This document shows positions 20,669 through 33,617 of a DNA stretch of 64,000 bases, one piece after another. Each line of letters opens with the position of its first letter. The first letter of the stretch is position 1. Source of the stretch: Herminiimonas fonticola. Its GTDB lineage: Bacteria > Pseudomonadota > Gammaproteobacteria > Burkholderiales > Burkholderiaceae_D. The position numbers were made by a program, and so were the translations under genes. The notes under the pieces are model-generated. The model worked only from the letters and a program-made list of their open reading frames with translations, did no database searches and was not told the origin of the DNA. Location: NCBI RefSeq assembly GCF_003293745.1, contig NZ_PTLZ01000001.1:1116001-1180000 (forward strand), in the 5' to 3' direction.

Positions 20669-20713
20669 AGTAACGTAAACGCTCTTATGTAGCAATTGCC
20701 CTTTGATTTTTTG

Positions 20714-20743
20714 AGTCATAGCCGCAAGCTAGCGGCTATGACT
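20714..20743 (+). other. 12-bp perfect hairpin across the start of the island's first gene
   Basis: AGTCATAGCCGC is followed by the loop AAGCTA and the exact complement GCGGCTATGACT. The second arm contains the ATG at 20738, so in mRNA the start codon would be buried in a stable stem. It is not followed by a T-run on either strand. It may restrict translation or be a recombination/IS-end structure. Confidence 0.6.
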
Positions 20744-21256
20744 ACAAAAATTCCTTCGGCGTTGAAATGGCTCGCAACCAAGCGCGCGCGGCTAGCAGGC
20801 GAACTCAAAAAAGCTGAGCTCGCACTTTGGAGGGTAGAAATTACTCAACAAGAAATCGATATGCTTAAGGCTGATCTGAAAAGTATCGACCAGACCATCC
20901 GATTACATGAAATTGCAATTAATCCCGAAAACATTTCCTCCATCGGCACTCAAACTGCAACTAGAAAGTTCAAACACGGCGCTATTACCAAAGCAATTTA
21001 TGCGGCATTAAGTCGCGCTGGCAATGAGGCACTAACTACTACTCAGATAACAGCTGCAGTTGCAAAAAAAGGCGCCAACTTGGATCAAATAGAATTGATG
21101 AATCTTAGGTTTGCAGTTCGTAAACTTCTCAGAGCAAAATATGCAGAAGGGAAAGTCGAACGCCTGCACACCGCTAAGACGTCTCTTGAAGGGCGATGGC
21201 GCCTAAAAAACTGGAATGCGATCGAGAATATTGGAAGACCTAAACGAAAAACCTAA
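20738..21256 (+). CDS. Coiled-coil / winged-helix-like protein of unknown function, next to transposase
   Basis: 172 residues from the ATG at 20738 (a TTG 42 bases upstream is also in frame). The N-terminal half is a charged helical coiled coil (LATKRARLAGELKKAELALWRVEIT...). The C-terminal half (KHGAITKAIYAALSRAGNEALTTTQITAAVAKK) looks like a winged helix: GxI-Ax-L-x-LTTxQI. Its stop overlaps the stop of the convergent transposase by two bases, so it may be a passenger gene of the IS1595-type element; element ends could not be confirmed. No known family recognised. Confidence 0.6.
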   Translation: MTTKIPSALKWLATKRARLAGELKKAELALWRVEITQQEIDMLKADLKSIDQTIRLHEIAINPENISSIGTQTATRKFKHGAITKAIYAALSRAGNEALTTTQITAAVAKKGANLDQIELMNLRFAVRKLLRAKYAEGKVERLHTAKTSLEGRWRLKNWNAIENIGRPKRKT

Positions 21257-22344
21257 AGCATCAAAAATTCGCCTTCACGATGATGTCCTTGAAAATAGCC
21301 GCGCCACCAACGTGACAAGCCATTCTTCATGATTTTTGAAAAAAGTTCTTTCATCTTCTCCCCCTCGCTTAAGCGGCGAACATCCTCACGCCACGCCATA
21401 TCGTTGGATAGGTCCATCAAATATTTGGGTGTAATGCGATGGACGACACCATACTCGCATCTGCGCAAGCGACTAAAGTACGACTCAGCCTGATTCTCGT
21501 TTACACCATCCGGACGATAAAACATTTCTGAGTGTGATACAGCTTCATGCTCCCACCATGCCGAGAGCTGCCCATATGCAGTATTTTCATCTGTCCATAT
21601 GTATGCATCTGGATCAATATATCGATGCGCCAGTTCAATGGCATCCCGTTCATTCTCGCTCATCGCAATTGATACGATAGTCCGACGGGCTCCGCGTTTT
21701 TCTTCTGGATAAATTTCACGAAGCACCATAACGATCCGACGTTTCTTTCTTCTTTCGACATTTTCTTTGCTATAAGCATAATGACGTTTTTTTCCTTGCT
21801 TCTTGATACTAGGGTTAAGGATGCCTTCGACTTTATTAGCAATCGCGGCGTGATCTGGTCGATTTCGAAAATTTTTCTTACGCGGCTTTCCTCCAAAATG
21901 CCCTCCATCAATTTGCACCTGCCCACAAAGCTTCTCGACTGATCGATTGCGAAGTAGGCATTCTCGAAGTTTCCCAATAAAGACAAATGCAGTTTTCACA
22001 TTCACATTTATCTCCCTCGCCAACTGAATAGCGGACTTCCCCTTTGCCCCAGACAAGTACAGTGAAATTCCTAACATCATTTTTCGGAAAGGCATTTTTC
22101 TTGAGTCGAATGGCGTGCCGCTTGTCACACTAAAAGAACGATCACAATGTCTGCAACGCCATTGGAGGCGTTTGGAACGAAAATAGTGAGCATCTACAAC
22201 ACCACAGGAAGGGCACGTTTGGGTATTTCGATTACCCCATCTTTGCTCCACAAAGAACCAGAAGGCATCCTCTTCAGACCATCCTGCAATATCGTATGCA
22301 CACAAGTCTCGAGAGGCTGCTGACAATAGAAAGTGCTGCGCCAT
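21253..22344 (-). CDS. IS1595-family (ISXO2-like) transposase
   Basis: 363 residues. The N-terminal zinc ribbon has C44-x2-C47 and C64-x2-C67 (WRCRHCDRSF), followed by the family-type SGTPFDSRKMPFRKM helical region. The DDE-like catalytic core shows VQIDGGHFGGK (Asp146), WTDENTAYG (Asp252) and VNENQAESYFSRLRR with the Asn/Glu third position. Full length with no frameshift, so possibly active. Upstream lies a 24-nt palindrome (22373-22396). I searched both flanks for terminal inverted repeats and an 8-bp target duplication and found none convincing. Confidence 0.9.
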   Translation of the reverse strand: MAQHFLLSAASRDLCAYDIAGWSEEDAFWFFVEQRWGNRNTQTCPSCGVVDAHYFRSKRLQWRCRHCDRSFSVTSGTPFDSRKMPFRKMMLGISLYLSGAKGKSAIQLAREINVNVKTAFVFIGKLRECLLRNRSVEKLCGQVQIDGGHFGGKPRKKNFRNRPDHAAIANKVEGILNPSIKKQGKKRHYAYSKENVERRKKRRIVMVLREIYPEEKRGARRTIVSIAMSENERDAIELAHRYIDPDAYIWTDENTAYGQLSAWWEHEAVSHSEMFYRPDGVNENQAESYFSRLRRCEYGVVHRITPKYLMDLSNDMAWREDVRRLSEGEKMKELFSKIMKNGLSRWWRGYFQGHHREGEFLML

Positions 22345-22372
22345 ATAGTTTCCTTCTTGGCGTTAAACGTCC

Positions 22373-22396
22373 TCAATGTGTCACGTGACGCATTGA
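22373..22396. promoter_or_regulatory. 24-nt near-perfect palindrome upstream of the transposase
   Basis: The two 12-base halves, TCAATGTGTCAC and GTGACGCATTGA, are complementary except for one T/G pair. It lies 29 bases before the transposase start codon, so it could be its operator. The half-site AATGTnTC is shared with the palindrome in the protease/methyltransferase promoter at 30271-30294 (AATGTATC), hinting at one common regulator. Confidence 0.55.
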
Positions 22397-22579
22397 TCGG
22401 TAAGCACGGACTTCCTTAAGAGTGCAAAAAGTCACCCTGTCGCGGTAATCGGACAAAAAGAGGTACGTGCAGGAATGTGGGGCTTGACGCAGAACGCGTG
22501 AGGAAGGAAACTGTAGATTCTGAGGTCGTTGGTTTCACTACCGGCGCGAAACGCGGCAGGTCGAAAGGCTTGTCGCGTT

Positions 22580-22981
22580 TTACATTTTTGCCTCCTGTGA
22601 TCGTATTGGCCGATAAGCAGAACTATCTACATACTCGGCTAAAGCTAACTGAGCAATTTCAATAAGCTTGTCCTTGCTGCTCTCCAGATGGGATTTTTTA
22701 CAGAGCAGTGCAGCGATCCGATAGTGGATTGGCTGAGAATCATCCGGCAAACGGAATGTAAGATTCGAAATTTCTGCCAAGCTCAATAGTTCAGCACTTT
22801 CTGAAGCCCTGAGTCGTAAGGTCTTGACGATCTTTTCGTGTTGATTAAGTAGCGGTCCCTTCGTACCGCTCAAGACTTGGCTAATATGATTAGGCAATAC
22901 ACCTATCTCCACAGCAAACTGTTTCTGCTGCAGATTTTCTCGTCGAATAAATTCTGAAAGTTTCTCGCCGTAAGGTGACAT
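22580..22981 (-). CDS. XRE-family HTH regulator
   Basis: 133 residues. The N-terminal HTH_3 domain (GEKLSEFIRRENLQQKQFAVEIGVLPNHISQVLSGTKGP, residues 5-43) has the Q-x3-A-x3-G-x5-I-S-x2-L pattern of lambda-repressor-like proteins. The C-terminal half is helical without a recognised ligand or protease domain. It is a candidate regulator of the island. Its upstream side is a 375-base AT-rich spacer holding two inverted repeats; downstream, beyond its stop, is the 24-nt palindrome before the transposase. Confidence 0.82.
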   Translation of the reverse strand: MSPYGEKLSEFIRRENLQQKQFAVEIGVLPNHISQVLSGTKGPLLNQHEKIVKTLRLRASESAELLSLAEISNLTFRLPDDSQPIHYRIAALLCKKSHLESSKDKLIEIAQLALAEYVDSSAYRPIRSQEAKM

Positions 22982-22983
22982 TT

Positions 22984-23020
22984 GGTATCTTGCAATCTAA
23001 TGTATTGCTGTAAGAGTACC
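22984..23020. promoter_or_regulatory. Imperfect inverted repeat just upstream of the XRE gene
   Basis: GGTATCTTGCAAT on one side and ATTGC...AAGAGTACC on the other form a broken dyad (GCAAT/ATTGC inner arms, GGTA/TACC outer arms) starting three bases before the XRE start codon. Such a location suits autoregulation by the XRE protein. Weak evidence. Confidence 0.3.
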
Positions 23021-23126
23021 GAACCAGATGATGAAGATACAGAGAAAAAATTAGGATAAAAATTACATATTTTTTCTCTTCTAAAATAAATACTAAATAA
23101 AATATTTATTCGAATGTGATTCAATA

Positions 23127-23151
23127 AATTTCATTTTAAAAATGAAATTTG
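23127..23151. promoter_or_regulatory. 25-nt perfect palindrome in the AT-rich spacer
   Basis: AAATTTCATTTT and AAAATGAAATTT are exact complements around a single central A. It lies 146 bases from the XRE start and 206 bases from the small acidic gene. In mRNA it would be a 12-bp stem, but as DNA its symmetry suits a dimeric regulator. It is unrelated in sequence to the AATGTnTC palindromes. Confidence 0.5.
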
Positions 23152-23356
23152 ACGCTTTTTTAAGTAAAAAATTATGATTTTTTAGAGTGATTTACTGGGT
23201 TCATTGATTTAAGTTACTGATGCATTCTTACAACATCAATCACACTTCTGCTTGGAATCCATTCTTCATATCTTTAACGATGATTTAAAAGTTTGTCAGT
23301 GATATGCTTCATTTTCATTGCTTCCAATGATCGCCGTACTTCTTCTACGTGGATAC

Positions 23357-23623
23357 ATGAATACGATAGAGATCTCATTTGATGAGGGAATTCTAGTTGC
23401 TACTCTGCCCAATGGAGAGACGCTCGAATCTGCCGATGCAATTATCCTAGCTTCGCTTTTAGTTAAAGCGGGTTTTCAAAGTGAAGATATCTCACATATT
23501 GACTGGCATAGTGATATGGATCGCAGTCCGTCTGCTGGGCAGAAAATTGCGATCCATCAGTATTTCCGTAAACACTCAATCACGATTAAGTCCGCTGCGG
23601 TTAAACCTGACCCAAAAAAATAA
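23357..23623 (+). CDS. Small acidic island protein, copy A
   Basis: 88 residues starting MNTIEISFDEGILVATLPNG; no family recognised. Predicted layout: two beta strands, a helix (ESADAIILASLLVKAG), an acidic stretch (SEDISHIDWHSDMDRS) and a basic helix (GQKIAIHQYFRKHS). A second copy at 29218-29451 shares 66 of the first 74 residues and the same DNA for long stretches. Start chosen at the ATG shared by both copies. It precedes a membrane/RelE-like gene, so an antitoxin or immunity role is possible but not shown. Confidence 0.7.
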   Translation: MNTIEISFDEGILVATLPNGETLESADAIILASLLVKAGFQSEDISHIDWHSDMDRSPSAGQKIAIHQYFRKHSITIKSAAVKPDPKK

Positions 23624-23750
23624 CGTACTACTCTTTCATAGATTGGTATCCCATAAATATGGGAATAGATTTTGCCCAACAATTTCATCTATCGAAAAGT
23701 ATCTTTACCAGTAGAATCATTCGCTCATTCCTTTCACGTTAGGATGCTCC

Positions 23751-24485
23751 GTGAGCGAGCTCGCGCCATATCTTTGGTCATATTTTGCAGTGGGATTACT
23801 ACTGACTGTAATTGCTTTGTTTCGAAGAGGACAATCAGAACGGTGGCGCATTGCGCCCATATGTTTCATTCTTCTTTTTTGGCCTCTGTTTCTACTCCTT
23901 ACGCCTGAATTTATCGTTAAACGATATGATGATTTGCCACGAAAAAAAAAGAAAACTTGGCAGGAACTAATAGATGCTTCTCCAGAAGACTTCTTGACAC
24001 TGACTGATGAAGAAAAACTTCGGGTCGAGTTAACGGTCAGCGACGGAGAAGAAGGGACTACCTTCTTCCCTGACTTTGCAGACTTCCAGAAAGTACTAAA
24101 AAGTTTCTGGGAACAAGACATCCCTCCGCAGGCTTATCGCTCTCTGAAAGACGCGAGATGGCGGCTCAGCGAAAGCTATCGAGAAGCTCAGAACATTTCA
24201 TATAGCCTTGCGGAACCAGATTGGTACGTGGGATTTTCAGCAGAGTTTGTCAAATCCATTTCGAGGATTGATAAAAACAAACGAGCAAGAGTTTTGGAGG
24301 CAATCACTAAACTAACGGATGCCCCCTTTACTGTGCATGGCGACACCGTGAAGCCTCTCACTGGTAACCTCTCTGGTCTTTGGCGTTACAGAATTGGCGA
24401 CGACAGATTGATCTACAAGGTAATTACATCTACAAACCAAATTGTATTGATGTCCTTTAGTTCGAGAGGGAGCGTGTATGAATAA
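23751..24485 (+). CDS. Membrane-anchored protein with C-terminal RelE/ParE-like domain
   Basis: 244 residues, GTG start with AGGA six bases upstream. Two membrane helices (about 7-24 and 35-52) are followed by a Lys-rich turn (RKKKK), a ~100-residue acidic helical linker, and a C-terminal RelE/ParE-like domain (about 158-244). That domain has the small-toxin pattern FSAEFVKSISRIDKNKRARV, VKPLTGNLSGLWRYRIGDDRLIY and the closing FSSRGSVYE. In the toxin family the Arg pairs (R212, R214, R219) and the last strand contribute to activity; the common terminal His is Ser here. Membrane-tethered RelE proteins are unusual; ordinary toxins are about 90 residues and soluble. No canonical antitoxin is adjacent. 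Confidence 0.75.
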   Translation: MSELAPYLWSYFAVGLLLTVIALFRRGQSERWRIAPICFILLFWPLFLLLTPEFIVKRYDDLPRKKKKTWQELIDASPEDFLTLTDEEKLRVELTVSDGEEGTTFFPDFADFQKVLKSFWEQDIPPQAYRSLKDARWRLSESYREAQNISYSLAEPDWYVGFSAEFVKSISRIDKNKRARVLEAITKLTDAPFTVHGDTVKPLTGNLSGLWRYRIGDDRLIYKVITSTNQIVLMSFSSRGSVYE

Positions 24486-24545
24486 AACATCTAAAAAAAC
24501 ACTAACCAGTCTCAATTGCCAAAACGTTTTCAAAGGAACCTTTGC

Positions 24546-25091
24546 ATGCTAGAGCACTTCTTAAAGAATAACGAGGACATGCTCTCAGCTGCTGCGCATT
24601 GCATTGAAGTACGACAGTACGTTCCAGCACAAGTACTTCTTTATTCGCATATAGATACGTTGGCCTGGGCAGGTTCATCTAAAGGAAAGATTGCAATCGG
24701 AGAGAGTTATGAAGCCTGGGTATCCACGTGGCTTTTGCCAGAGCTTGTTTCCAGCTACCCCACACTTACCGCAAGCGAACTCTATGCTGCCCGATGCGGC
24801 ATGGTACATACGCTAACAGGTACGTCGCGTTTATCTTCGGCTGGGAAAGCGAGGCGTATCGGCTATGCCGCAGGCACTGCTAACGCACAGGCTATGGATG
24901 ATGCACTGGCTTCTACTAAGTTTGCGGGCCAGATTATAACGTTGCACTACGATGTTCTTCTTCGAGCTCTACGGAGATCTATTGATAAGTTCATCGCCTC
25001 ATCTTCTGAAGACGCTGAGCTTTTACAAAATCTCGAAGCTGCAGCTAAGCAGCATTATCAAATCCTACCGGACGTCGAGAGAAATAATTAA
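24546..25091 (+). CDS. HEPN-like protein of unknown function
   Basis: 181 residues, start at ATG 24546 with AAAGGAA upstream. Mostly helical. The segment LYAARCGMVHTLTG contains R83-x4-H88, matching the Rx4-6H motif of HEPN ribonuclease-like domains, in the helix-turn context seen in RCGxxH variants. HEPN proteins often act as RNases in toxin-antitoxin and phage-defence systems. Similarity is from the motif and helical pattern only. Sixty bases downstream of the RelE-like gene and on the same strand, so possibly one operon. Confidence 0.6.
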   Translation: MLEHFLKNNEDMLSAAAHCIEVRQYVPAQVLLYSHIDTLAWAGSSKGKIAIGESYEAWVSTWLLPELVSSYPTLTASELYAARCGMVHTLTGTSRLSSAGKARRIGYAAGTANAQAMDDALASTKFAGQIITLHYDVLLRALRRSIDKFIASSSEDAELLQNLEAAAKQHYQILPDVERNN

Positions 25092-25156
25092 CAGCTGTCT
25101 GTTTAGGCATGCATTACTTATGCATGAAATGCCCTCATTAATATCCGTAAATAAAA

Positions 25157-26032
25157 ATGGATCAAAGAGAACAATCAACCGGCGATGACGCAAATGAATA
25201 TTCTGCGAAGCATGCACGCGACTTTATGAAAGAAGTGCGGACGCTAAGAAATGCACAAGTGACCGTTCAAATAGATTTATATAGTTTGGCTGGTCAGCTT
25301 AAGGTTCCACGTGCACGAACATTTGCAAATGAGGGAATTGGACGAAGGCTGCAACTAATTGAACGAGCAGTTAATAACATCTACCGCATCTACCCACTTA
25401 ACAAGAAAACTTTCCTCACCAAGGATGAGTGCATAGACATTGCAATACAGATGCATGCTTTTGTTATTAACTTATATGCACTATTTGACAATATCGCATG
25501 GGTTTGTATTCTCGAATCTGGACAACAGTTGGCGCCATTGAAAATTGGCCCGTTCAAGTCAGAGTCGCAGCGATTTTTTCCAAAGCGGCTAAAAGAATAT
25601 CTCGCACAAGAAACAGTCAAAACTTGGTTTGATGATTACGGCAAACTCTATAGAGACTCTACTGCGCATCGCATTGCTCCCTATCTTCCTTCCCGTGTTT
25701 ACACAGCCGAAGACGGAAACCGCTGGCAGGAGCTTAATGAAGAATCAATGCAAACTTTATGCGCCACGGTATCTTGTGAAACAAGACATGAAGTTGATGA
25801 ACGTTTGGAAAAACACGAAAGCATTGAGAGGGAAAAGGAATCTTTAGGTCGCAACAGCATCATGATGGCACTTTCCCTGATAGGTGATGATGCCTCGCCA
25901 CCCATCTACATGCATCCACAGCTTATTTGTGACTGGGGTCTGGCTCACGAACTCATTACGACATTTACTGAAGCAATGCGCGAGCAATACGGTTGGAGCA
26001 AACCAAAAATTCCACCGATAGCTGTAAATTGA
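25157..26032 (+). CDS. HEPN-like helical protein, island cluster
   Basis: 291 residues, all-helical in appearance. A central hydrophobic helix AFVINLYALFDNIAWV and the motif YRDSTAHRIAPYLP (R166-x4-H171) recall a group of hypothetical proteins with an RxxxAHR-P-Y-P pattern that I regard as HEPN-related. A conserved-looking C-terminal portion (IYMHPQLICDWGLAHELI) follows. No signal peptide. Neighbours are another Rx4H protein upstream and a nuclease-like protein downstream. Function unknown; RNase activity is a guess to be tested. Confidence 0.55.
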   Translation: MDQREQSTGDDANEYSAKHARDFMKEVRTLRNAQVTVQIDLYSLAGQLKVPRARTFANEGIGRRLQLIERAVNNIYRIYPLNKKTFLTKDECIDIAIQMHAFVINLYALFDNIAWVCILESGQQLAPLKIGPFKSESQRFFPKRLKEYLAQETVKTWFDDYGKLYRDSTAHRIAPYLPSRVYTAEDGNRWQELNEESMQTLCATVSCETRHEVDERLEKHESIEREKESLGRNSIMMALSLIGDDASPPIYMHPQLICDWGLAHELITTFTEAMREQYGWSKPKIPPIAVN

Positions 26033-26129
26033 AAAAGCGCGTCATTCAATATCTGCCTCAGCAGGAAATGGTAAGTATTCATGCCGAGATTTATGGTCAT
26101 TTTTATTCAGCCAATTAGAAAGAAGTAGC

Positions 26130-28301
26130 GTGCGATTAGGCCCACATAAAACTAGTAAGACTGAAGCCGAAGTTTTCGCTGAGATTTTTGCTCTATGTAG
26201 TAGCCCGGGCTACGCTCACGCCATTGCTTACATCTGTCATCGAGACAACTTCGTTGCGTTTGACTCTGAAATGAAGGCAGACGACATGCAGAGGCTCTTC
26301 GCTTCCGACAGGTTGATTCGTACGGAGATTACGACGCTTATCGGACTCCTAGTACAGAATGCCGTTGACTTGAGTCTCCCGAGTCCAGAAACAATGCAGG
26401 CCTATGTGGACCGGACACTTCAGTTAATGGAAGAACTTCACGCGGCGATAGGCATGCCGATGTTCGAAAACATGACTGCATCAAGATCTGGTCAGTCAGA
26501 CGAGGCAGCTTCGCAACGTGGTGCGTTTCTTCGTGAACCAATCTTTTATGGTGGTGAGTCCGCTTATGGTTTTCAGTATCGAGACTTCTCACCAGAAAAG
26601 TATGGCAAAGACAATGACTGGTTGCGCAGAAAAATGGGCTTCGATATTCAAGCCGCTACTGCCGTTGTACGCGCCATTGGCGAAAGACAGAACATCAATG
26701 TCATGGAAGCACATAAAGCCATGCCTCCAGATGCTCCCGCAAGTTGGACAATTCTTCCTGGCTTCTACCTTGCCTCGGAAGAACTAGCACTTGCCAGTGG
26801 AGTTCCAATAGAGGAAGTTCGGGCTGTGCTGGATGCTTTTACGCTCAAAGGACGAAATACAACATTTACAGATGCCACCGCATTCAACTCCATTTCGGCA
26901 ACTCCATTAATTCCACTGCCAGATGGGCGCGTATTACTGTTCCAGTATTACAGCATTGTGGAAGCCCTCTATGAATCGCCTTTTTACTGGATGGGTGCGG
27001 ATGATACATATAAAGCAAAAGCCTTCAAGCACCGCGGTGAGTTCACGGAGTCATTCACTGCTCGCCGATTAGCGAAAGTCTTCGGAGGGGCAAATGTCCG
27101 CAGCAATATTGATGTTTTTCATGGGAAGAACAAAGCTGGCGAGATTGATGTTCTTGTGACATTCGGTGATCGCGTAATTGTCGTTCAAGCAAAGTCAAAA
27201 AGACTGACATTAGAAGCAAGAAAAGGAAATGACGGCCAAATTGAAGCTGACTTTCAAAAGGCAATTGCAGACTCGTATGAACAAGGATTGTTATGTGCTC
27301 GCAGGATACTCGATGGAGACTGCGCACTGCGTGACAGTGCAGGTGCGGAGGTCAAGTTAGTGTGGGCACCAAAAGAAGTCTTCATCCTCAATGTCGTTGC
27401 AGATCATTACCCCGCTCTAAGCTTTCAAGCTGGCCAGTTTCTGAAGCCTGAGGTTTCTGATGGAATCAGACCACCATTCATCATGGATGTTTTCCTCCTA
27501 GATGCGATGACGGAGATGCTTGAAACGCCACTGCGGCTTCTAAGCTATATCAACCAGAGAGTTCTTCAAGCTGATCGGCTGCACCTAGCCCACGAGTTAG
27601 TCGCATTGTCTTTCCATCTTAAGCAAAACCTTTGGCTCTCTCCGGAGAATTCCTTAGTCATGCTGGGAGACGACATTAGCAGCGACCTAGACCTTGCGAT
27701 GACTGTTCGGCGAGATGGTGTTCCTGGGAAAAGAACGCCAGACGGAATATTGACTAAGTTCGCTGGAACTGCGTTTGAGCGCCTGATAACGCAGATTGAA
27801 AAGAAGAGTGATCCAGCTGCGGTTGAGCTTGGTTTTCTTTTGCTCAGCATAGGAGAAGAAACATGCCGACACATTGACGAGGCCATTCACCAGATAACTC
27901 GACGAGCTAAAGTGGATGGCAAACTTCACGACTTTACAGTCGGCATTGGTGAGACAGGGGAAGGCATATGCCTGCACTGTAACCCTAAGTCCTCAGACGA
28001 AGCCGCAGATAGACTGGCAGCTCATTGCCACCTGCGGAAATACACGCAGAAAGCACACAAATGGATTGGTCTTTGCCTAAACACTGACGAGAGCATCCGT
28101 ATGGGCGTCGTTTTGGATTTCGAATGGGAGCAGTCCGATGAAATGGACTCACAAACTGCAACAATGCAGCAGCGTAAGGGAGGCGCGGTCCCTCAGAAAC
28201 CTTTTGTTAAATGGACGAGGGACAAAACTGGCCGCAATGAGTCTTGCCCATGTGGTAGCGGGTTGAAATACAAGAAGTGCCACCTTGGTAATGCGCCGTA
28301 G
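26130..28301 (+). CDS. Large protein with PD-(D/E)XK nuclease-like domain and C-terminal SEC-C motif
   Basis: 723 residues, GTG start. A helical N-terminal part (1-290) leads to a nuclease-like core at about 303-390: GEFTESFTARRL (Glu), NKAGEIDVLVTFGDRVIVVQAKSK with Asp340 and the Q353-x-K355 variant of the ExK motif, as in NERD/Mrr-like restriction-type domains. A long middle region is unrecognised. The last 25 residues are a SEC-C zinc motif (NESCPCGSGLKYKKCH), common as an appendage on nucleic-acid or ribosome-associated proteins. Probably a DNA- or RNA-cleaving effector, judging from catalytic residues and context; untested. Confidence 0.72.
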   Translation: MRLGPHKTSKTEAEVFAEIFALCSSPGYAHAIAYICHRDNFVAFDSEMKADDMQRLFASDRLIRTEITTLIGLLVQNAVDLSLPSPETMQAYVDRTLQLMEELHAAIGMPMFENMTASRSGQSDEAASQRGAFLREPIFYGGESAYGFQYRDFSPEKYGKDNDWLRRKMGFDIQAATAVVRAIGERQNINVMEAHKAMPPDAPASWTILPGFYLASEELALASGVPIEEVRAVLDAFTLKGRNTTFTDATAFNSISATPLIPLPDGRVLLFQYYSIVEALYESPFYWMGADDTYKAKAFKHRGEFTESFTARRLAKVFGGANVRSNIDVFHGKNKAGEIDVLVTFGDRVIVVQAKSKRLTLEARKGNDGQIEADFQKAIADSYEQGLLCARRILDGDCALRDSAGAEVKLVWAPKEVFILNVVADHYPALSFQAGQFLKPEVSDGIRPPFIMDVFLLDAMTEMLETPLRLLSYINQRVLQADRLHLAHELVALSFHLKQNLWLSPENSLVMLGDDISSDLDLAMTVRRDGVPGKRTPDGILTKFAGTAFERLITQIEKKSDPAAVELGFLLLSIGEETCRHIDEAIHQITRRAKVDGKLHDFTVGIGETGEGICLHCNPKSSDEAADRLAAHCHLRKYTQKAHKWIGLCLNTDESIRMGVVLDFEWEQSDEMDSQTATMQQRKGGAVPQKPFVKWTRDKTGRNESCPCGSGLKYKKCHLGNAP

Positions 28302-28333
28302 TTACTAAAGCACTCTTCAAACAAAGGAGAAGC

Positions 28334-29020
28334 ATGAAGATTTTTATGAACATCTATTTGATGTTTACAGGATGTTGGGTAGGTGGCGTACTGATTTGGC
28401 AACTAGATTGGGCAAATAAAGACGCGCCGGCTTGGGTTCAGGCTGTTGGTTCTGTCCTCGCTATTTTTGTTGCTATCGGTGTCTCCATAAATCAGCATAG
28501 AAACGATTTAACGCGTGACGCAATAAATGATGAGGTTGCAGTCCTGCGTCTTCTGCTTGGCTTGAGAGATGAAGTGGTAATCGCCATGAGGGGAGCGAAG
28601 ACGTCCTTTGGAAAGGGCATTTCGGAGGCCATCATTGGCGAAGGCGTGCAGATGACTTTCTATCCTTCGGATCGGCCGTTCAAAATTTACAATAGCAACG
28701 TCAACAGGATAGGCATCATTCCAGAAGATAAACTTCGGGAAACTATCATCGGGGCATATGCACGATTTGAACTATTGTTAGTCGCACTTAAAATTAACAA
28801 CGACCAACTTGCCGATTATTCAGCTATGCAGAATCTGCCTTATCCGACTGGAGGCATCATTGCGGTCGAAGAAGCCATACGCCAAGCGAAAGTTGACTTT
28901 TCACAAAGTAAATTTATCGAGCATGGCGACAGCCTTATTCAGGAATATTCAGACTGTTTAAAGTGTGCTGAAGAGCTTGTAATTGAACTCAACCAAGCCA
29001 TTAAAAATAGAAAAAATTGA
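28334..29020 (+). CDS. Membrane protein of unknown function
   Basis: 228 residues. An N-terminal membrane helix (about 5-25), a short loop WANKDAPAWVQAVGSVLAIFVAIGVSI giving a second helix (about 37-52), then a cytosolic helical domain. The W-x-Q-A-V-G-S-x-x-A-I-F-V-A-I second helix is seen in many small membrane proteins of mobile elements. The cytosolic part has no recognised motif. It is 32 bases after the nuclease-like gene and has AAAGGAG at a good distance, so probably in the same operon. Confidence 0.65.
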   Translation: MKIFMNIYLMFTGCWVGGVLIWQLDWANKDAPAWVQAVGSVLAIFVAIGVSINQHRNDLTRDAINDEVAVLRLLLGLRDEVVIAMRGAKTSFGKGISEAIIGEGVQMTFYPSDRPFKIYNSNVNRIGIIPEDKLRETIIGAYARFELLLVALKINNDQLADYSAMQNLPYPTGGIIAVEEAIRQAKVDFSQSKFIEHGDSLIQEYSDCLKCAEELVIELNQAIKNRKN

Positions 29021-29217
29021 TTGGGTCTCAATTAGTTATTTGTTATTTCATATCCGTACATATATGCGGCATACCGAGTGCGCTTTGAAGTTCGGGGAAG
29101 CTTGCGATTAATAAGTAGATACTTCCCAATACTCCATATACTTCAATGACATTTGCGAGTCCGCGCCCGCCCATTGATAGAACTAAACGCGACAATTTGA
29201 TTACGAGCCAAAGGTAC

Positions 29218-29451
29218 ATGAATACGATAGAGATATCACTTGATGACGGAATTCTAGTTGCGGCCCTACCCAACGGAGAGACGCTCGAATCTGCTGATGC
29301 GATTGTCCTAGCTTCGCTTTTAGTTAAAGCAGGTTTTCAAAGTGAGGATATTTCTCACATTGACTGGCATAGTGATATGGACAGAAGTCCATCGAGTGGT
29401 CAGAAAATTGCGATTCATGAATATTTGCGTAACCATTCAAATCCATCGTAA
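29218..29451 (+). CDS. Small acidic island protein, copy B
   Basis: 77 residues, 66 of 74 aligned residues identical to the protein at 23357-23623; the two DNA sequences stay alike from just before the ATG (ATACATGAATACGATAGAGA / GTACATGAATACGATAGAGA) to the codons for HS. It ends 11 residues earlier, with no basic tail. The ORF could be extended upstream, but similarity between copies begins at this ATG. It is convergent with the SprT-like gene. Most of the changes are conservative or synonymous, which suggests that both copies are maintained. Confidence 0.68.
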   Translation: MNTIEISLDDGILVAALPNGETLESADAIVLASLLVKAGFQSEDISHIDWHSDMDRSPSSGQKIAIHEYLRNHSNPS

Positions 29452-29503
29452 AGCAATCGGTATCGCAAAAGTCCGACGAAATTCAGCCCATCACTTGCAG
29501 TAT

Positions 29504-30259
29504 CTACTCCGGAATAAAACTTGCGTCGCATGTCTCACATCTTATATGAAGCATTGGCTTTCCCCAGACATTGATCTTGCAATGTGGGCAGCAATATTTC
29601 GTTTTATAACGCGTTTTTTCCGCCGTCGTCTTCATTTCAGGGACAAAGTTAGGTATCAAAATCGAAACTGGAAGCTCAAGGAGAACTTCAGGAGAGTTCT
29701 TCATGAACTTTGTTGGAACTGAGCGCTTATGTTTTCTTTTCAATGAGTCTTCGCTACCTTGCAGATTAGTCCGCCGATCGACCCAATTAAATTGATACCC
29801 CTTTTTTATCAACCCAATGCACGAGCGTTGAAATACTCCCCCGTCAATCACATAATCAGACATCTTCTGACCGACTTTTCGACCACCTACTTGAGCAGAT
29901 GAGCTCGGCATTAATCCAATTGATTCCATTTTTTCTGCCCATTCACGATTGTGGTAACCAGACCGACTAGGATTGCCAAACTCGTGTTGCCACAAATGGC
30001 ATTGTTCATGGACAAGTGTTTGAAATATTTCGATTACTTTGCGATTAGCAAAATAAATTGGATTTAAGGCTATCTCATGCACATCGGAAGCGGACGTGCT
30101 ACTCCAGCGCAACGGCGAGAAAAATCCCATTGTGTTTTTCTCACGCTGGACAGTAATTAAGCACTCTGGAAGAGCTCGATCAAAAAGCGTCCGATTGAAG
30201 TGTTCGTACGCATATTGCAACTGCCCATAAAAATCGTTAGTTGGCTTGACTGCTTTCAT
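29504..30259 (-). CDS. SprT-like zinc metallopeptidase
   Basis: 251 residues. The SprT-like domain occupies the N-terminal ~150 residues, with the zinc site LVHEQCHLWQH (HExxH-type HEQCH) and the downstream GYHNREWAEKM. A C-terminal zinc ribbon (CCPHC...CETC, about 220-245) completes it. SprT-like proteases cleave DNA-protein crosslinks (Spartan/SprT) and are recurrent in mobile elements and defence islands. Divergent from the methyltransferase/ATPase pair, with a near-perfect palindrome between them. Confidence 0.85.
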   Translation of the reverse strand: MKAVKPTNDFYGQLQYAYEHFNRTLFDRALPECLITVQREKNTMGFFSPLRWSSTSASDVHEIALNPIYFANRKVIEIFQTLVHEQCHLWQHEFGNPSRSGYHNREWAEKMESIGLMPSSSAQVGGRKVGQKMSDYVIDGGVFQRSCIGLIKKGYQFNWVDRRTNLQGSEDSLKRKHKRSVPTKFMKNSPEVLLELPVSILIPNFVPEMKTTAEKTRYKTKYCCPHCKINVWGKPMLHIRCETCDASFIPE

Positions 30260-30270
30260 TTTTCATGTGG

Positions 30271-30294
30271 ATAATGTATCGTACGAAACATTAT
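30271..30294. promoter_or_regulatory. 24-nt near-perfect palindrome in the SprT/methyltransferase promoter
   Basis: The half ATAATGTATCGT and the half ACGAAACATTAT are complementary except for one A/A pair. It occupies the middle of the 66-base gap between divergent start codons (30259 and 30326). Such a centre position can control both genes at once. It shares AATGTnTC half-sites with the palindrome at 22373-22396. The binding protein could be the XRE regulator or the methyltransferase itself. Confidence 0.65.
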
Positions 30295-30325
30295 AAAACA
30301 AAATTCTGATATTTCAGGGGGCTAA

Positions 30326-31654
30326 ATGGATGATTTCAAATCTGGGTCGGAAAATGAATCGTATGGTTCTTTAGCAATGCCGACTTCATTTGCATCGCCT
30401 AAAAAAATCTTGCGATTTGCGGATTTATTTTCTGGGTTAGGAGGATTTCATGTCGCCCTCGAAAAACAAGGGATGCAATGCATTTTTGCCTCCGAGCTGG
30501 ATGGTGAGCTACGAGATATTTATGAACGCAATTTCGGATTGCGACCTGAAGGTGATATTCGGAAGGTGAACGAACTAGATATACCTCCACACGACGTTCT
30601 GTGCGCCGGATTTCCCTGCCAACCCTTCTCATCTGCAGGTAAAAAGAAGGGGGCTGCATGTCCCGCATCTGGCAAGTTAATTGATGATGTTTTCCGAATC
30701 GTTAGAGCTCACAAACCTAGTTTTGTTATGCTTGAAAATGTTCCTGAAATTTTAACCATTCAAAATGGTGAATTTTGGGATCACATTAAACGCACGTTTA
30801 TTAAACTCGGTTATACGATTGATTACAGGATTTACTCCCCGCACGAATTTGGCATACCGCAAAAGCGTGAGCGTGTTTTTGTTGTTGCTAGCCAAGTGGG
30901 GTTAGACCACTTTAGTTGGCCTGTTATTAATCTTCATCCAGTTAAAAAATTATCTGATTTGATCGGAAACGATACTGAAACTCGGCCATTAGAAAAAGAA
31001 AAAATAAAGGTATTGAAGCGTTGGCAAGCATTGATTACTGAAGTAAAGACGTTCAGTCATAAAACAACCTTGGCGGCCGAGTTTGGTGCCGATTATCCCC
31101 TGACGGATTTGAAGCGCATGACATTGAAAGAGATGCGTCTCTTTAGAGGAGCGTTCGGCGCTTCATTATCTGAATGCAAAACATGGGCCGAGGTCATGTC
31201 GAAGCTGCCGCATTATGTTGGGGGGAAAGACGGAAAAACACCTGAGTGGCTGAAGCAATCAATTATTCATAGTAGGCAGCTTTATGAACAACACGTTGAT
31301 TTTCTTGATGTTTGGAAAACGGACTTTATCGACAGCCATAACAGTTGGCAAAAAATGGAATGGCGTGGCAATCGCCAAGTACCAAGTATTTGGAAACATA
31401 CAATCCAATTTAGAGCCTCTGGAATTCGTATCAGCAAACCTGATTACGCACCGTCTCTCGTAGCCATGACACCTACGCAAACACCAATAATCGGAGCAAA
31501 ACGTCGATATATGAGCGTGCGTGAAGCAGCCGCACTTCAATCATTAGATGGATTGAAGCATTTTCCAAAATTCAATGGTATGGCCTTCAAGGCATTGGGA
31601 AATGCAGTAAATGCTCATATCGTTGGCGAAATTGCCAATCAATTAATTCGCTAA
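30326..31654 (+). CDS. DNA (cytosine-5-)-methyltransferase
   Basis: 442-residue C5-MTase with motifs in standard order: I LRFADLFSGLGGF (30-41), IV AGFPCQPFSSAG (Cys98 nucleophile), VI LENVPE (135-140), VIII PQKRERVFVVA (177-187, variant QxRxR) and X ALGNAVN near the C-terminus. The target-recognition region lies about 215-390. It is complete and should be active; target site cannot be read from sequence. A strong AGGGGG precedes the ATG. The MORC-like ATPase follows nine bases later, so the two are coupled; no classical restriction endonuclease is adjacent. Confidence 0.95.
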   Translation: MDDFKSGSENESYGSLAMPTSFASPKKILRFADLFSGLGGFHVALEKQGMQCIFASELDGELRDIYERNFGLRPEGDIRKVNELDIPPHDVLCAGFPCQPFSSAGKKKGAACPASGKLIDDVFRIVRAHKPSFVMLENVPEILTIQNGEFWDHIKRTFIKLGYTIDYRIYSPHEFGIPQKRERVFVVASQVGLDHFSWPVINLHPVKKLSDLIGNDTETRPLEKEKIKVLKRWQALITEVKTFSHKTTLAAEFGADYPLTDLKRMTLKEMRLFRGAFGASLSECKTWAEVMSKLPHYVGGKDGKTPEWLKQSIIHSRQLYEQHVDFLDVWKTDFIDSHNSWQKMEWRGNRQVPSIWKHTIQFRASGIRISKPDYAPSLVAMTPTQTPIIGAKRRYMSVREAAALQSLDGLKHFPKFNGMAFKALGNAVNAHIVGEIANQLIR

Positions 31655-31663
31655 GGGACCGCT

Positions 31664-33418
31664 ATGTTAGTTGACGTATCGCCAGACATGTCGATGTATC
31701 TTCTTCTCCGTAGCCAAGGCTACGAGGAGTCTTATGCATTAGCGGAGTTCATTGATAACGCTATTCATGCACACCAGAATGCTGTCGCGAGCAATCCAAA
31801 GTTGCATGAAAAATTAACGATTAATTTATCCTTCTATTCAAATAATTATCGAGATGCCGCCTCTCAAAATTCGATTTCAATTATTGATGATGGAGTCGGC
31901 ATCTCTGGAGAACATTTAGTCCATGCACTTAAGCCTGCGAAACCTCCTACGCAACGAGGATTAAGCGAATTTGGTATTGGTATGAAAGCTGCTGCGGTGT
32001 GGTTTTCTCCAATATGGTCCCTATCCACAAGCCCGACTGGGGAAAATTTTGATTACACCGTCGATTTCGATTTAGATAAATTGATTGCTGCTGGAAAAAC
32101 TGAAATCGATGTTAAAAAAACTAGCGCAACAAAGAGGCATGCAAGCGGAACGACGATCTTATTGAAGGATTTACATAAGCCGATAGCATCGGACAGGTAT
32201 GTTGCCATTTGCGAAGCATTGACTGAAATTTACCAGACCTTTACTCGAGGCACTGGAGCTTATCTAACCTTGAACGCTACATATGACGGTGCCAATCAAA
32301 AAAATCTGAAATATCAAGATTCTGGAGCTTCTGACGTTTTAATAGCTCGAAATTACAAGGTGCGCGGGAAAAAACTCATTCTTAGCGGGCCAGAAAAATC
32401 ATGGACTGTGCCAGTTGAATTTGATTACTTAGGACATCATGTAACCGGCCATCTTGAACTCCGTGAGACTGGTAGTTACGTCAATAATCCAGGGCTTGTA
32501 CTGTTTCGATATGGGCGAGTAATTAAAGGATTGAAGAGCAAGCCATACAATCCTCCGAAACTATATAAAACAGCCAACAAATATGGCAAGCAACGTATTT
32601 ACGGGGAGCTTCATCTAGACGGTTTGCCTGTGAGTTATATGAAAGATGGCTTTAACATCGATGAAGATGATTTTCTGGTTCATATTTTGCGTCTTGACGG
32701 CGTGGAAGCTTTAATGGCTCAAGCGGAAAATTATCGGAAAGAAATACCCGCCGGGTGGGTAGTTGAAGATGAAGATAAGGAGGGCGTTTCTCCTACTAAG
32801 CCGTCACCTAAACCCAAGGCGCCAGAGAAAGATGAGGGAAAACCAACTCAGAAGCCTGTCAGCCCTGCGACCGAGGAGGGAAATAATAAAGGGAATCCGA
32901 AAACAAATCCTCCTACTAATCCGGTAAAACCTCAAGTGATACCCGCGCCTGCAATAGCCCTTCTTGACTCGCTTATGGTGAGCACAAGTAACCTAGCTCT
33001 TAAGTCAATTATTGAGGAAACGATTCGACAATATCGTGCCACAAGATTTATTAGTACGGCTTTATGTCTTCGTATTGTTTTGGAATGCGGCTGTCTTGAT
33101 CGTATTCGTAGAGATTTCAATTCGGAGTATAGAAAAGTTTCGGATTTGGGCATTCAAGCTCTCCTAACTCACCTAAACAAAAATGCTTCACAGCTATCAA
33201 AGAATAATTTACAAGGAGATGTTTTTCATTTTAAGAATGATCATGCCGTAATTAAATGCATACAAGCTAATACTAATAAGGCTAGCGATCAGTTGGATAT
33301 TATTCTATTGAATACTATTTCTCATGGACATTTTCAGCCAACAAAGCCGACGTTAGATCGTGTTTTGCTTAACATTCAGCCATTGTTAGAATGGGCATAT
33401 CAGAGACAGCCGTCGTAA
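31664..33418 (+). CDS. MORC-like GHKL ATPase associated with the methyltransferase
   Basis: 584 residues. GHKL ATP-binding motifs: N box ALAEFIDNAIHA (Glu28, Asp31-Asn32), G1 IIDDGVGIS (Asp76), G2/lid GLSEFGIGMKAAAV (104-107). An S5-like transducer domain follows (about 220-345), then a Pro/Lys-rich linker (about 365-425) and a C-terminal helical domain (430-584). This architecture matches the paraMORC proteins described in restriction-modification-like operons, related to eukaryotic MORC ATPases. ATP-driven clamping on DNA is the likely activity. Same operon as the C5-MTase. No ATPase motif is missing. Confidence 0.82.
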   Translation: MLVDVSPDMSMYLLLRSQGYEESYALAEFIDNAIHAHQNAVASNPKLHEKLTINLSFYSNNYRDAASQNSISIIDDGVGISGEHLVHALKPAKPPTQRGLSEFGIGMKAAAVWFSPIWSLSTSPTGENFDYTVDFDLDKLIAAGKTEIDVKKTSATKRHASGTTILLKDLHKPIASDRYVAICEALTEIYQTFTRGTGAYLTLNATYDGANQKNLKYQDSGASDVLIARNYKVRGKKLILSGPEKSWTVPVEFDYLGHHVTGHLELRETGSYVNNPGLVLFRYGRVIKGLKSKPYNPPKLYKTANKYGKQRIYGELHLDGLPVSYMKDGFNIDEDDFLVHILRLDGVEALMAQAENYRKEIPAGWVVEDEDKEGVSPTKPSPKPKAPEKDEGKPTQKPVSPATEEGNNKGNPKTNPPTNPVKPQVIPAPAIALLDSLMVSTSNLALKSIIEETIRQYRATRFISTALCLRIVLECGCLDRIRRDFNSEYRKVSDLGIQALLTHLNKNASQLSKNNLQGDVFHFKNDHAVIKCIQANTNKASDQLDIILLNTISHGHFQPTKPTLDRVLLNIQPLLEWAYQRQPS

Positions 33419-33458
33419 GTCTTTGTTTATTCTGCTAAATCATACGCACGTTCAAGTA

Positions 33459-33488
33459 AAAAAAGCCCGTAATTCAGCGGGCTTTTTT
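33459..33488 (+). terminator. Intrinsic terminator after the MORC-like gene
   Basis: AAAAAAGCCCG and CGGGCTTTTTT form an 11-bp stem with an eight-base loop, 40 bases after the ATPase stop. The A-run on one side and the T-run on the other make it bidirectional. Confidence 0.9.
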
Positions 33489-33489
33489 G

Positions 33490-33565
33490 TTGCTTTCGTC
33501 GTATTGGGCGCTTGCTGGATAAGAGTGTTGCTTTCGTCGTATTGGGCGCTTGCTGGATAAGAGTG
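33490..33565 (+). repeat. 38-bp tandem duplication at the island's right edge
   Basis: Two identical 38-base units (33490-33527 and 33528-33565) beginning TTGCTTTCGTCGTATTGGGC and ending GCTTGCTGGATAAGAGTG sit between the terminator and xthA. The unit shows no open reading frame of note. A related GCTGGATAAG occurs at 34391-34402. Exact identity of the units suggests recent duplication. Confidence 0.9.
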
Positions 33566-33617
33566 CTTTTTTACATCCTGCGCTGGCTCCGAAAAGCTAC
33601 ACAGGCACGTTCTATCA

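Follow-up and report, generated by a model that had tools for sequence, protein, structure and literature searches.

A 64,000-nucleotide stretch of the genome of Herminiimonas fonticola (positions 1116001–1180000 of contig NZ_PTLZ01000001.1, in a genome of 3.1 Mb; the whole stretch is referred to below as the window) carries a C5-cytosine DNA methyltransferase (MTase) gene, followed by a GHKL ATPase gene and preceded by a divergent gene for an SprT-like protein. We consider it about 45% probable that the MTase and the ATPase together represent a compact, methylation-guarded, abortive-infection-like defence module, with the SprT-like protein (SprT in the following) as an accessory regulator; both the function of the pair and its regulation are things that we infer from sequence. 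An earlier note on this DNA had assigned the three genes to their places, strands and families, and the predicted open reading frames (ORFs) and Pfam confirmed these assignments at the same coordinates: the SprT-like zinc metalloprotease-family protein (251 amino acids (aa), 29504–30259, minus strand; PF10263, E 1.1e-12), the MTase (442 aa, 30326–31654, plus strand; PF00145, E 6.2e-63), and the ATPase (31664–33418, plus strand; HATPase_c_3, E 2.4e-12). The divergent starts of the SprT and MTase genes lie 66 bp apart, and nine bases separate the MTase gene from the ATPase gene, as had been noted. The MTase carries the motifs FADLFSGLGG, PCQPFS, ENV, QKRERVFVV, and GNAVNA, and was matched by the PADLOC models MTase_II (2.1e-70) and DruM2 (8.4e-67).

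The constant unit proved to be the two genes for MTase and ATPase. The search of genome contigs yielded nine ATPase relatives, and an MTase of the same family adjoined every one of them (partial at the contig end in locus L004 and convergent in L003). Within the order sample, the ATPase was present in 6 out of 399 genomes including that of the window, with the MTase adjoining in all five others (a fragment at the contig end in L048), and the class sample gave 3 out of 369 genomes, again including the window's, with the MTase adjoining in both others. On viral contigs, the MTase directly adjoined the ATPase in seven out of nine cases; one gene intervenes in L034 and L035, the ATPase of L035 being a distant relative (24%).

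All ATPase matches of the order sample outside the window genome belonged to a sister clade, in which genes for Z1 and for a DUF4420 protein (PD-(D/E)XK) come after the pair, as assigned by Pfam in L044 and L045. BLAST detected both proteins in 12 out of 13 sister loci (L044–L048, L080, L028, and L030–L034), and in the thirteenth, L029, the contig stops after the ATPase. This split was supported at 100/100 in the ATPase and MTase trees, for which seven and eight sister loci were used, respectively. The window's own clade comprises 11 rows in the MTase tree (100/100) and 10 rows in the ATPase tree (98/97), the latter being weak within the clade (open forks) and calculated without the split ATPase of L027; the MTase of L079 falls within the clade, whereas its ATPase lies outside on a very long branch. 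None of the 12 window-clade loci (window, L002–L010, L027, and L079) gave a BLAST match to Z1 or DUF4420, and Pfam found no nuclease-family match adjoining the pair in the window; the nuclease check in the relatives covered Z1 and DUF4420 and few other neighbours. As a side observation, genes resembling those of Tn7-like transposition were seen by eye beside the pair in L003, L005, L006, and L079, and lipA/lipB-like genes in the first three of these (lipA being confirmed by NCBIfam in L006).

The N-terminal part of the ATPase (residues ~1–359; 31664–32740, plus strand) consists of a GHKL ATPase and an S5-like transducer, as deduced from HATPase_c_3, AlphaFold2, and Foldseek, and shows the make-up of paraMORC/MORC-type proteins, namely GHKL and S5 parts with an intact N-box, DxGxG, and GxG. 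The motifs are found in EFIDNAIHA, DDGVGI, and SEFGIGMKAA, and residues E28, D31 and N32 (N-box), D75, G77, G79, G104, and G106 (G104-I-G106 forming the G2 loop) are invariant among the 10 aligned ATPases. The earlier note had described these motifs as intact, which was correct for the N-box Asp31-Asn32 and for G104-I-G106; the aspartate of DxGxG, however, is D75 and not D76, residue 76 being an asparagine in four of the 10 rows. The nearest solved folds to the whole ATPase model in Foldseek were the ATPase modules of Hsp90, SMCHD1, GyrB/ParE, and TopoVI-B. A Pro/Lys-rich linker follows (residues ~360–419; 32741–32920, plus strand), modelled with low confidence (AlphaFold2 predicted local distance difference test (pLDDT) below 50 at residues 372–427). 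The S5-like part, the flexible linker, and the C-terminal helical domain predicted earlier were supported by the AlphaFold2 models.

The all-helical C-terminal domain (32921–33418, plus strand), with the conserved motifs LRxxLE (469–474) and LNxxxHG (549–555), was modelled alone at a pLDDT of 85.9. According to PADLOC, profile comparison, and AlphaFold2, it appears, with moderate confidence, to be related to the end of PD-Lambda-5_A, a protein of a phage-defence system compared below. The PADLOC model PDLC04013 (PD-Lambda-5_A) matched the window ATPase at E 4.5e-4 for the whole protein and at 0.0019 for the C-terminal part alone; only residues 372–577 matched, on the end of the model and not over its full length. 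Values for relatives were 6.9e-36 (L010), 1e-28 (L008), 2.3e-9 (L009), 8.4e-9 (L005), 2.2e-6 (L006), and 6e-5 (L002). Furthermore, when seven window-type rows were compared as a profile to the end of the L038 PD-Lambda-5_A alone, the result was 60% (E 8.5e-5) with collinearity across some 120 residues, while the controls stayed at 0.1–0.7% (five column shuffles) and 0.1% (N-terminal part of the L038 protein). Including L009, an ATPase of the same family, in the target inflated this comparison to 86% (E 4.8e-6), a value that is not relied on; the comparison with L009 alone gave 9%.

The ends of the ATPases of L008, L010, and L079 represent a second type, whose relationship to a PD-Lambda-5_A encoded by a Paracoccus phage is clear (BLAST 3e-19, 2e-15, and 1e-12, respectively); in this phage, the gene following PD-Lambda-5_A encodes a D12 MTase. 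C-termini of the PD-Lambda-5_A type thus appear behind two different N-terminal parts, with a methyltransferase beside them each time. The N-terminal part of PD-Lambda-5_A itself we take to be ParB-like by eye, on the basis of NPR and EGNRR motifs; Pfam gave no match. The apparent relation of the C-terminal domain to PD-Lambda-5_A strengthens the defence reading of the pair, and with it the earlier proposal of a paraMORC-like ATPase and an MTase that lack an adjacent restriction enzyme and probably serve methylation-guided defence.

A further possibility, that the ATPase itself is a GHKL-type type II restriction enzyme with DNA cleavage residing in its C-terminal domain, is improbable. No other nuclease adjoins the pair, and the ATPase of L008 showed a weak collinear match to the BbrUII/HgiDII model (147–201 on 149–201, E 0.0016, 17 bits at a cut-off of 550), but this match sits in the ATPase part and not at the end, and the C-terminal domain is all helical, without a nuclease family in Pfam or a confident fold match. 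Still less credit is given to the pair being an orphan epigenetic or DNA-maintenance unit with no role in defence. SprT and GHKL proteins also act in DNA repair, and no phage test of this clade was found; the location in a genomic island absent from congeners, the Tn7-like genes beside some relatives, the patchy distribution of the family including the sister clade (6/399 and 3/369 genomes), the Z1 and DUF4420 genes of the sister operons, and the apparent kinship of the C-terminal domain with PD-Lambda-5, for which defence has been tested, all speak against such a unit.

The third gene of the locus encodes a protein with the features of SprT/Spartan proteins, namely HExxH (HEQCH, residues 84–88), a third histidine in GYHN (101–104), and a C-terminal zinc ribbon (CPHC...CETC). 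The upstream side is visible in 11 loci of the window's MTase clade, and SprT precedes the pair in three of them: the window, L002 (Rhodanobacter), and L007 (Hylemonella). Of the three-gene conservation that the earlier note had suggested searching for in other genomes, the MTase–ATPase pair held throughout, while the trio was found only in part. Seven of the eight loci without SprT carry a related small gene instead (alignment A5: L003, L005, L006, L009, L010, L027, and L079), which looks helix-turn-helix (HTH)-like by eye and for which neither Pfam nor NCBIfam reached the cut-off of any family in the rows scanned; the eighth, L008, has another small gene in the slot of SprT. In the order and class samples, SprT-type genes occurred in 9 out of 399 and 9 out of 369 genomes, respectively, and in both samples SprT and the ATPase co-occurred in the window genome only.

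The alignment of all 20 SprT proteins from the genome-contig, order, and class searches revealed an intact HExxH in 18, including the window's and all 17 encoded outside MTase–ATPase loci. The motif is broken in the two other SprTs linked to the pair, L002 (QGQCH) and L007 (QAQCD, with the third histidine replaced by arginine), although their frames are open and the C-terminal CxxC pairs of the zinc ribbon are retained. Since these two proteins group together in the SprT tree (96/92, both on long branches), the loss of HExxH may have been a single event.

The earlier note had proposed that SprT could handle DNA-bound proteins as the protease of the set; such a core proteolytic role was not supported, SprT being absent from eight of the 11 loci and HExxH gone in L002 and L007. 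It is quite unlikely that SprT works as a protease here, clearing DNA–protein crosslinks (for example, trapped C5 MTases) or cutting a DNA-bound protein of phage or host. C5 MTases do form covalent DNA intermediates, and the window SprT has HEQCH, the third histidine, and the zinc ribbon. Human Spartan has been described to cleave DNA–protein crosslinks (PMC7213743). Besides the eight loci without SprT and the destruction of HExxH in both other linked SprTs, it counts against a protease function that SprT with the palindrome described next is also found beside PD-Lambda-5 (L038) or without such MTases in view.

A 16-bp palindrome, TGTATCGTACGAAACA, lies between the SprT and MTase genes (30275–30290, on neither strand in particular), differs by one mismatch from TGTATCGTACGATACA, and is a putative operator for the promoters of both. 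The perfect TGTATCGTACGATACA was found at the same place between SprT and MTase in L002 and L007. When up to one mismatch to any of five variants was allowed, the palindrome was also detected upstream of SprT in L036, L037 (with a second copy at two mismatches), L038, L041 (two copies), L072, L073, and L074, i.e., in 10 out of 20 SprT loci altogether, and in none of the eight SprT-less MTase–ATPase loci. The variants were picked after some of the sites were known, so that L036, L038, and L041 are less independent; a single consensus at two mismatches gave no site in the genomes of these three. No other site with up to two mismatches was present in the window genome (five with three mismatches; reversed control, four), and in 16 further genomes seven out of nine sites with up to two mismatches were located at SprT. 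The two remaining ones, G279:C188:17207 and G567:C25:13941, each lie within another gene of the contig that carries SprT, at a distance of about 13 kb from it. The pattern TGTWTCGTACGAWACA occurred in 1 out of 220 genomes of the order, that of the window; G088, G133, and G172 of the order sample carry only variants invisible to it.

The palindrome is flanked by two predicted sigma-70-like promoters, that of the MTase–ATPase pair (30246–30275, plus strand; TTGACT-18-GATAAT) and that of SprT (30290–30317, minus strand; CTGAAA-16-TATAAT), and the −10 elements of both abut it. Consensus scanning gave no excess of promoter-like sites in the region (6; shuffle mean 8.0). A protein bound at the palindrome would cover both predicted start points, and SprT most likely acts as an (auto)regulator because its palindrome lies across both of them. 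This role is favoured over that of a protease effector since SprT is optional, has lost HExxH in L002 and L007, is tracked by the palindrome in one of its subfamilies, and shares its slot with other small genes. A function of the palindrome as recognition or regulatory site of the MTase itself was rejected as the principal explanation, because it precedes SprT where there is no relative of the MTase and is missing from all eight SprT-less pairs: BLAST detected no relative of the window MTase in the palindrome-bearing stretches L036, L037, and L041, and none of this MTase or of PD-Lambda-5_B in L072, L073, and L074. A KfrA operator was also considered, KfrA_N genes being located near SprT in L041 and L038 and one being present in the window genome; the latter is on another contig, and no palindrome at one mismatch was found in the 18 kb surrounding it. 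A LexA-like box was set aside by its spacing relative to the LexA consensus.

Several neighbourhoods of SprT relatives were recorded in addition. In L038 (2864–6725), PD-Lambda-5 A and B stand beside a palindrome-bearing SprT, together with a gene named DUF5131-like by eye that represents PDC-M30B according to PADLOC. The SprT of L071 (3892–6241) is followed by a DUF5131-like and a three-Cys-motif-partner-like gene (both names by eye), while a gene for KfrA_N and one for a tyrosine integrase lie divergently to the palindrome-bearing SprT of L041 (7639–9746).

It is possible, though on balance somewhat unlikely, that SprT is a passenger or an ArdC-like anti-restriction gene of mobile elements that landed here with its own operator. 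Such an origin would agree with two SprT relatives on stretches that by eye look like integrative and conjugative elements or plasmids (G567 and G697), with the window being the only genome to share SprT and ATPase in the order and class samples, and with the anti-restriction of ArdC, which needs no protease activity (PMC7213743). Against it stand the same divergent place of SprT in three loci, among them Rhodanobacter (L002) and Hylemonella (L007), and the open frames and retained zinc ribbons of the latter two in spite of the loss of their active sites.

A number of observations weigh against a defence pair under the control of SprT. The PD-Lambda-5_A model gave no match for L003, L004, and L007, and the match of the window protein, taken alone, is weak. 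A hidden Markov model (HMM) of the seven window-type rows, searched against 1642 ORFs including both PD-Lambda-5_A proteins, found only its own seven rows and missed those of L038 and L060 at E 1, which is why the relation is rated as only moderate. The nature of the C-terminal domain as HEPN is not established: Foldseek returned no PDB match below E 0.8 and no viral match below E 1, the HEPN-T protein 2q00 appearing only at E 3.5 (TM 0.49/0.62, probability 0.60), and the arginine of Rx4-6H is missing, while LNxxxH is present in all seven window-type rows. The profile comparison of the domain gave 0.1% with Ymh-HEPN and 1.7% with DUF4145 (14% when rows of L038 and L009 were added; shuffles ≤0.8%), the DUF4145 set including L097, the reading frame of which is doubtful (stop codons entered as X). 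The listing of 2q00 as HEPN-T follows Anantharaman et al. (PMC3710099), where the Rx4-6H motif is also described as missing from some HEPN families. Sequence profiles for the C-terminal domain, SprT, and the small upstream gene yielded nothing useful from the PDB. As to the regulator, the window SprT keeps HEQCH and the third histidine, so proteolysis there is possible, and SprT is often located far from any MTase and hence may be a passenger. The palindrome is missing from 10 of the 20 SprT loci, among them L071, whose SprT is closely related to that of the window, and a regulator not seen here would fit at the palindrome too. The reversed-pattern control also gave five matches at two mismatches in the same 16 genomes, so that little can be concluded from the palindrome being almost unique within a genome; what matters is its association with SprT, and the copies in G279 and G567 may be due to chance.

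Under the favoured reading of a guarded defence pair with a regulatory SprT, the C5 methyltransferase, a member of a known family, would mark the cell's own DNA, and the GHKL/S5 protein would close as an ATP-gated dimer on DNA, in the manner of MutL, topoisomerase, and MORC modules, and respond to unmarked DNA. The fused C-terminal helical domain would then act as effector in place of a separate helicase and nuclease, resulting in a blocked invader or in cell arrest. SprT, an accessory in the slot of the small gene of other loci, would (auto)regulate its own gene and the MTase–ATPase pair by DNA binding, and its protease chemistry would be dispensable. A broader idea, which we regard as doubtful, is that SprT-like proteins represent control proteins of a new class, acting on defence systems based on DNA modification. 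In this scenario, a zincin that originally repressed its own gene via TGTATCGTACGATACA would have been recruited to the divergent promoter of an MTase–clamp pair and would, in one lineage, have given up the protease site but retained DNA binding and control of the operator, with the effector end of the clamp being exchangeable and found also behind a ParB-like module. If the overall reading is right, related effector domains would stand behind N-terminal modules of two unrelated kinds (GHKL and ParB-like), each with a DNA methyltransferase, opening the question of how the clamp reads methylation and fires its effector without a restriction nuclease; moreover, the repertoire of zinc metalloproteases would extend from repressor cutting, as in IrrE/DdrO, to the direct control of a defence operon.

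The module occupies the right-hand end of a genomic island of 12.9 kb (about 20671–33615), the GC content of which is lower than that of its flanks. The island is missing in all five congeners for which the region was fetched, a subset of the 12 matching the right flank, and both flanks lie 79–757 bp apart there. It harbours an IS1595-family transposase (21253–22344) with an accessory gene, to which a gene pair of the Rhodanobacter locus L002 is related (38% and 33% identity). Near-identical small ORFs (23318–23623 and 29146–29451; 89% over 75 aa) flank the hypothetical cluster of the island on either side, and two hypothetical genes (24516–25091 and 25157–26032) look HEPN-like by eye (CGMVHT; YRDSTAHRI), Pfam giving no match for either. 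The claim of the earlier note that a nuclease is missing nearby is right for the genes adjoining the pair, but the same island encodes a 723-aa protein with SEC-C and the nuclease-related NERD (26130–28301), whose NERD match lies just below the cut-off (21.1 versus 22.1 bits). This protein is a possible extra defence gene; no homologue was found in the nine relative loci from the genome-contig search. The ATPase gene is followed by an intrinsic-terminator-like hairpin (33459–33488, plus strand; 12-pair stem and T run), such sites being not clearly in excess in the region (5; shuffle mean 3.6), and beside it, just within the right end of the island, lies a perfect 38-bp tandem duplication (33490–33565).

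Among the systems known so far, the paraMORC/MORC operons of restriction–modification (R-M) type described by Iyer et al. 2008 (PMC2292703) resemble the window locus in combining an intact-motif GHKL and S5 ATPase with a DNA cytosine methylase. About 70% of the MORC neighbourhoods contain a superfamily II (SFII) helicase and a minority of such operons lack helicases; the window locus has none. The terms SprT, protease, and peptidase do not occur in the main text of that paper, and no description of an SprT–MTase–GHKL set was found in the limited body of open-licence literature covered, including PMC2292703 and PMC8011034. A GHKL ATPase followed by a helical domain is already known as a kind of architecture: Anantharaman et al. 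2013 (PMC3710099) described paraMORC ATPases near R-M genes that carry a fused Ymh-HEPN domain, proposed to act like PrrC or RloC. The window protein shares this arrangement and the R-M context, whereas its helical domain has no Ymh match and lacks the HEPN arginine.

PD-Lambda-5, a tested E. coli phage-defence system with a methyltransferase partner, was interpreted by its authors as the prophage form, in compacted shape, of R-M combined with abortive infection (Abi) (Vassallo et al. 2022, PMC9519451). It is likewise a two-gene pair with a methyltransferase and, in protein A, a probably related C-terminal domain, but the N-terminal part of A is ParB-like (by eye) where the window protein has GHKL, and B is a D12-type MTase (Pfam, L060) in contrast to the C5 type (PF00145) of the window; the partner of PD-Lambda-5 in L038 matched the same PADLOC B model as that of L060. 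The Z1–DUF4420 R-M operons of the sister clade (for example, L044–L047 and L080) share the order MTase–GHKL, with 41–43% for the MTase and 30–34% for the ATPase, whereas Z1 and DUF4420 are missing from the window clade, which has a C-terminal domain of its own. Compared with classical type II R-M, the window pair has no cognate restriction endonuclease alongside. As to MZA and Druantia, MzaB was matched at only 16.5 bits (PADLOC), none of their partners, such as an MzaC-like Z1 protein, was found among the island proteins scanned, and DruM2 matched the MTase alone.

For SprT, the comparison with ArdC of plasmid R388, whose anti-restriction is independent of protease activity (PMC7213743), rests on an SprT-like fold in a restriction setting with dispensable protease activity in ArdC; the window SprT has a palindrome upstream, whereas the available text of PMC7213743 mentions no operator palindrome for ArdC. 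With the control (C) proteins of R-M systems, small regulators encoded upstream of the MTase that bind a palindromic operator, SprT agrees in its position and palindrome; it is not an HTH protein. A precedent for a zinc metalloprotease in gene control is IrrE/DdrO, in which the protease cuts the repressor (PMC5552922, PMC10904395).

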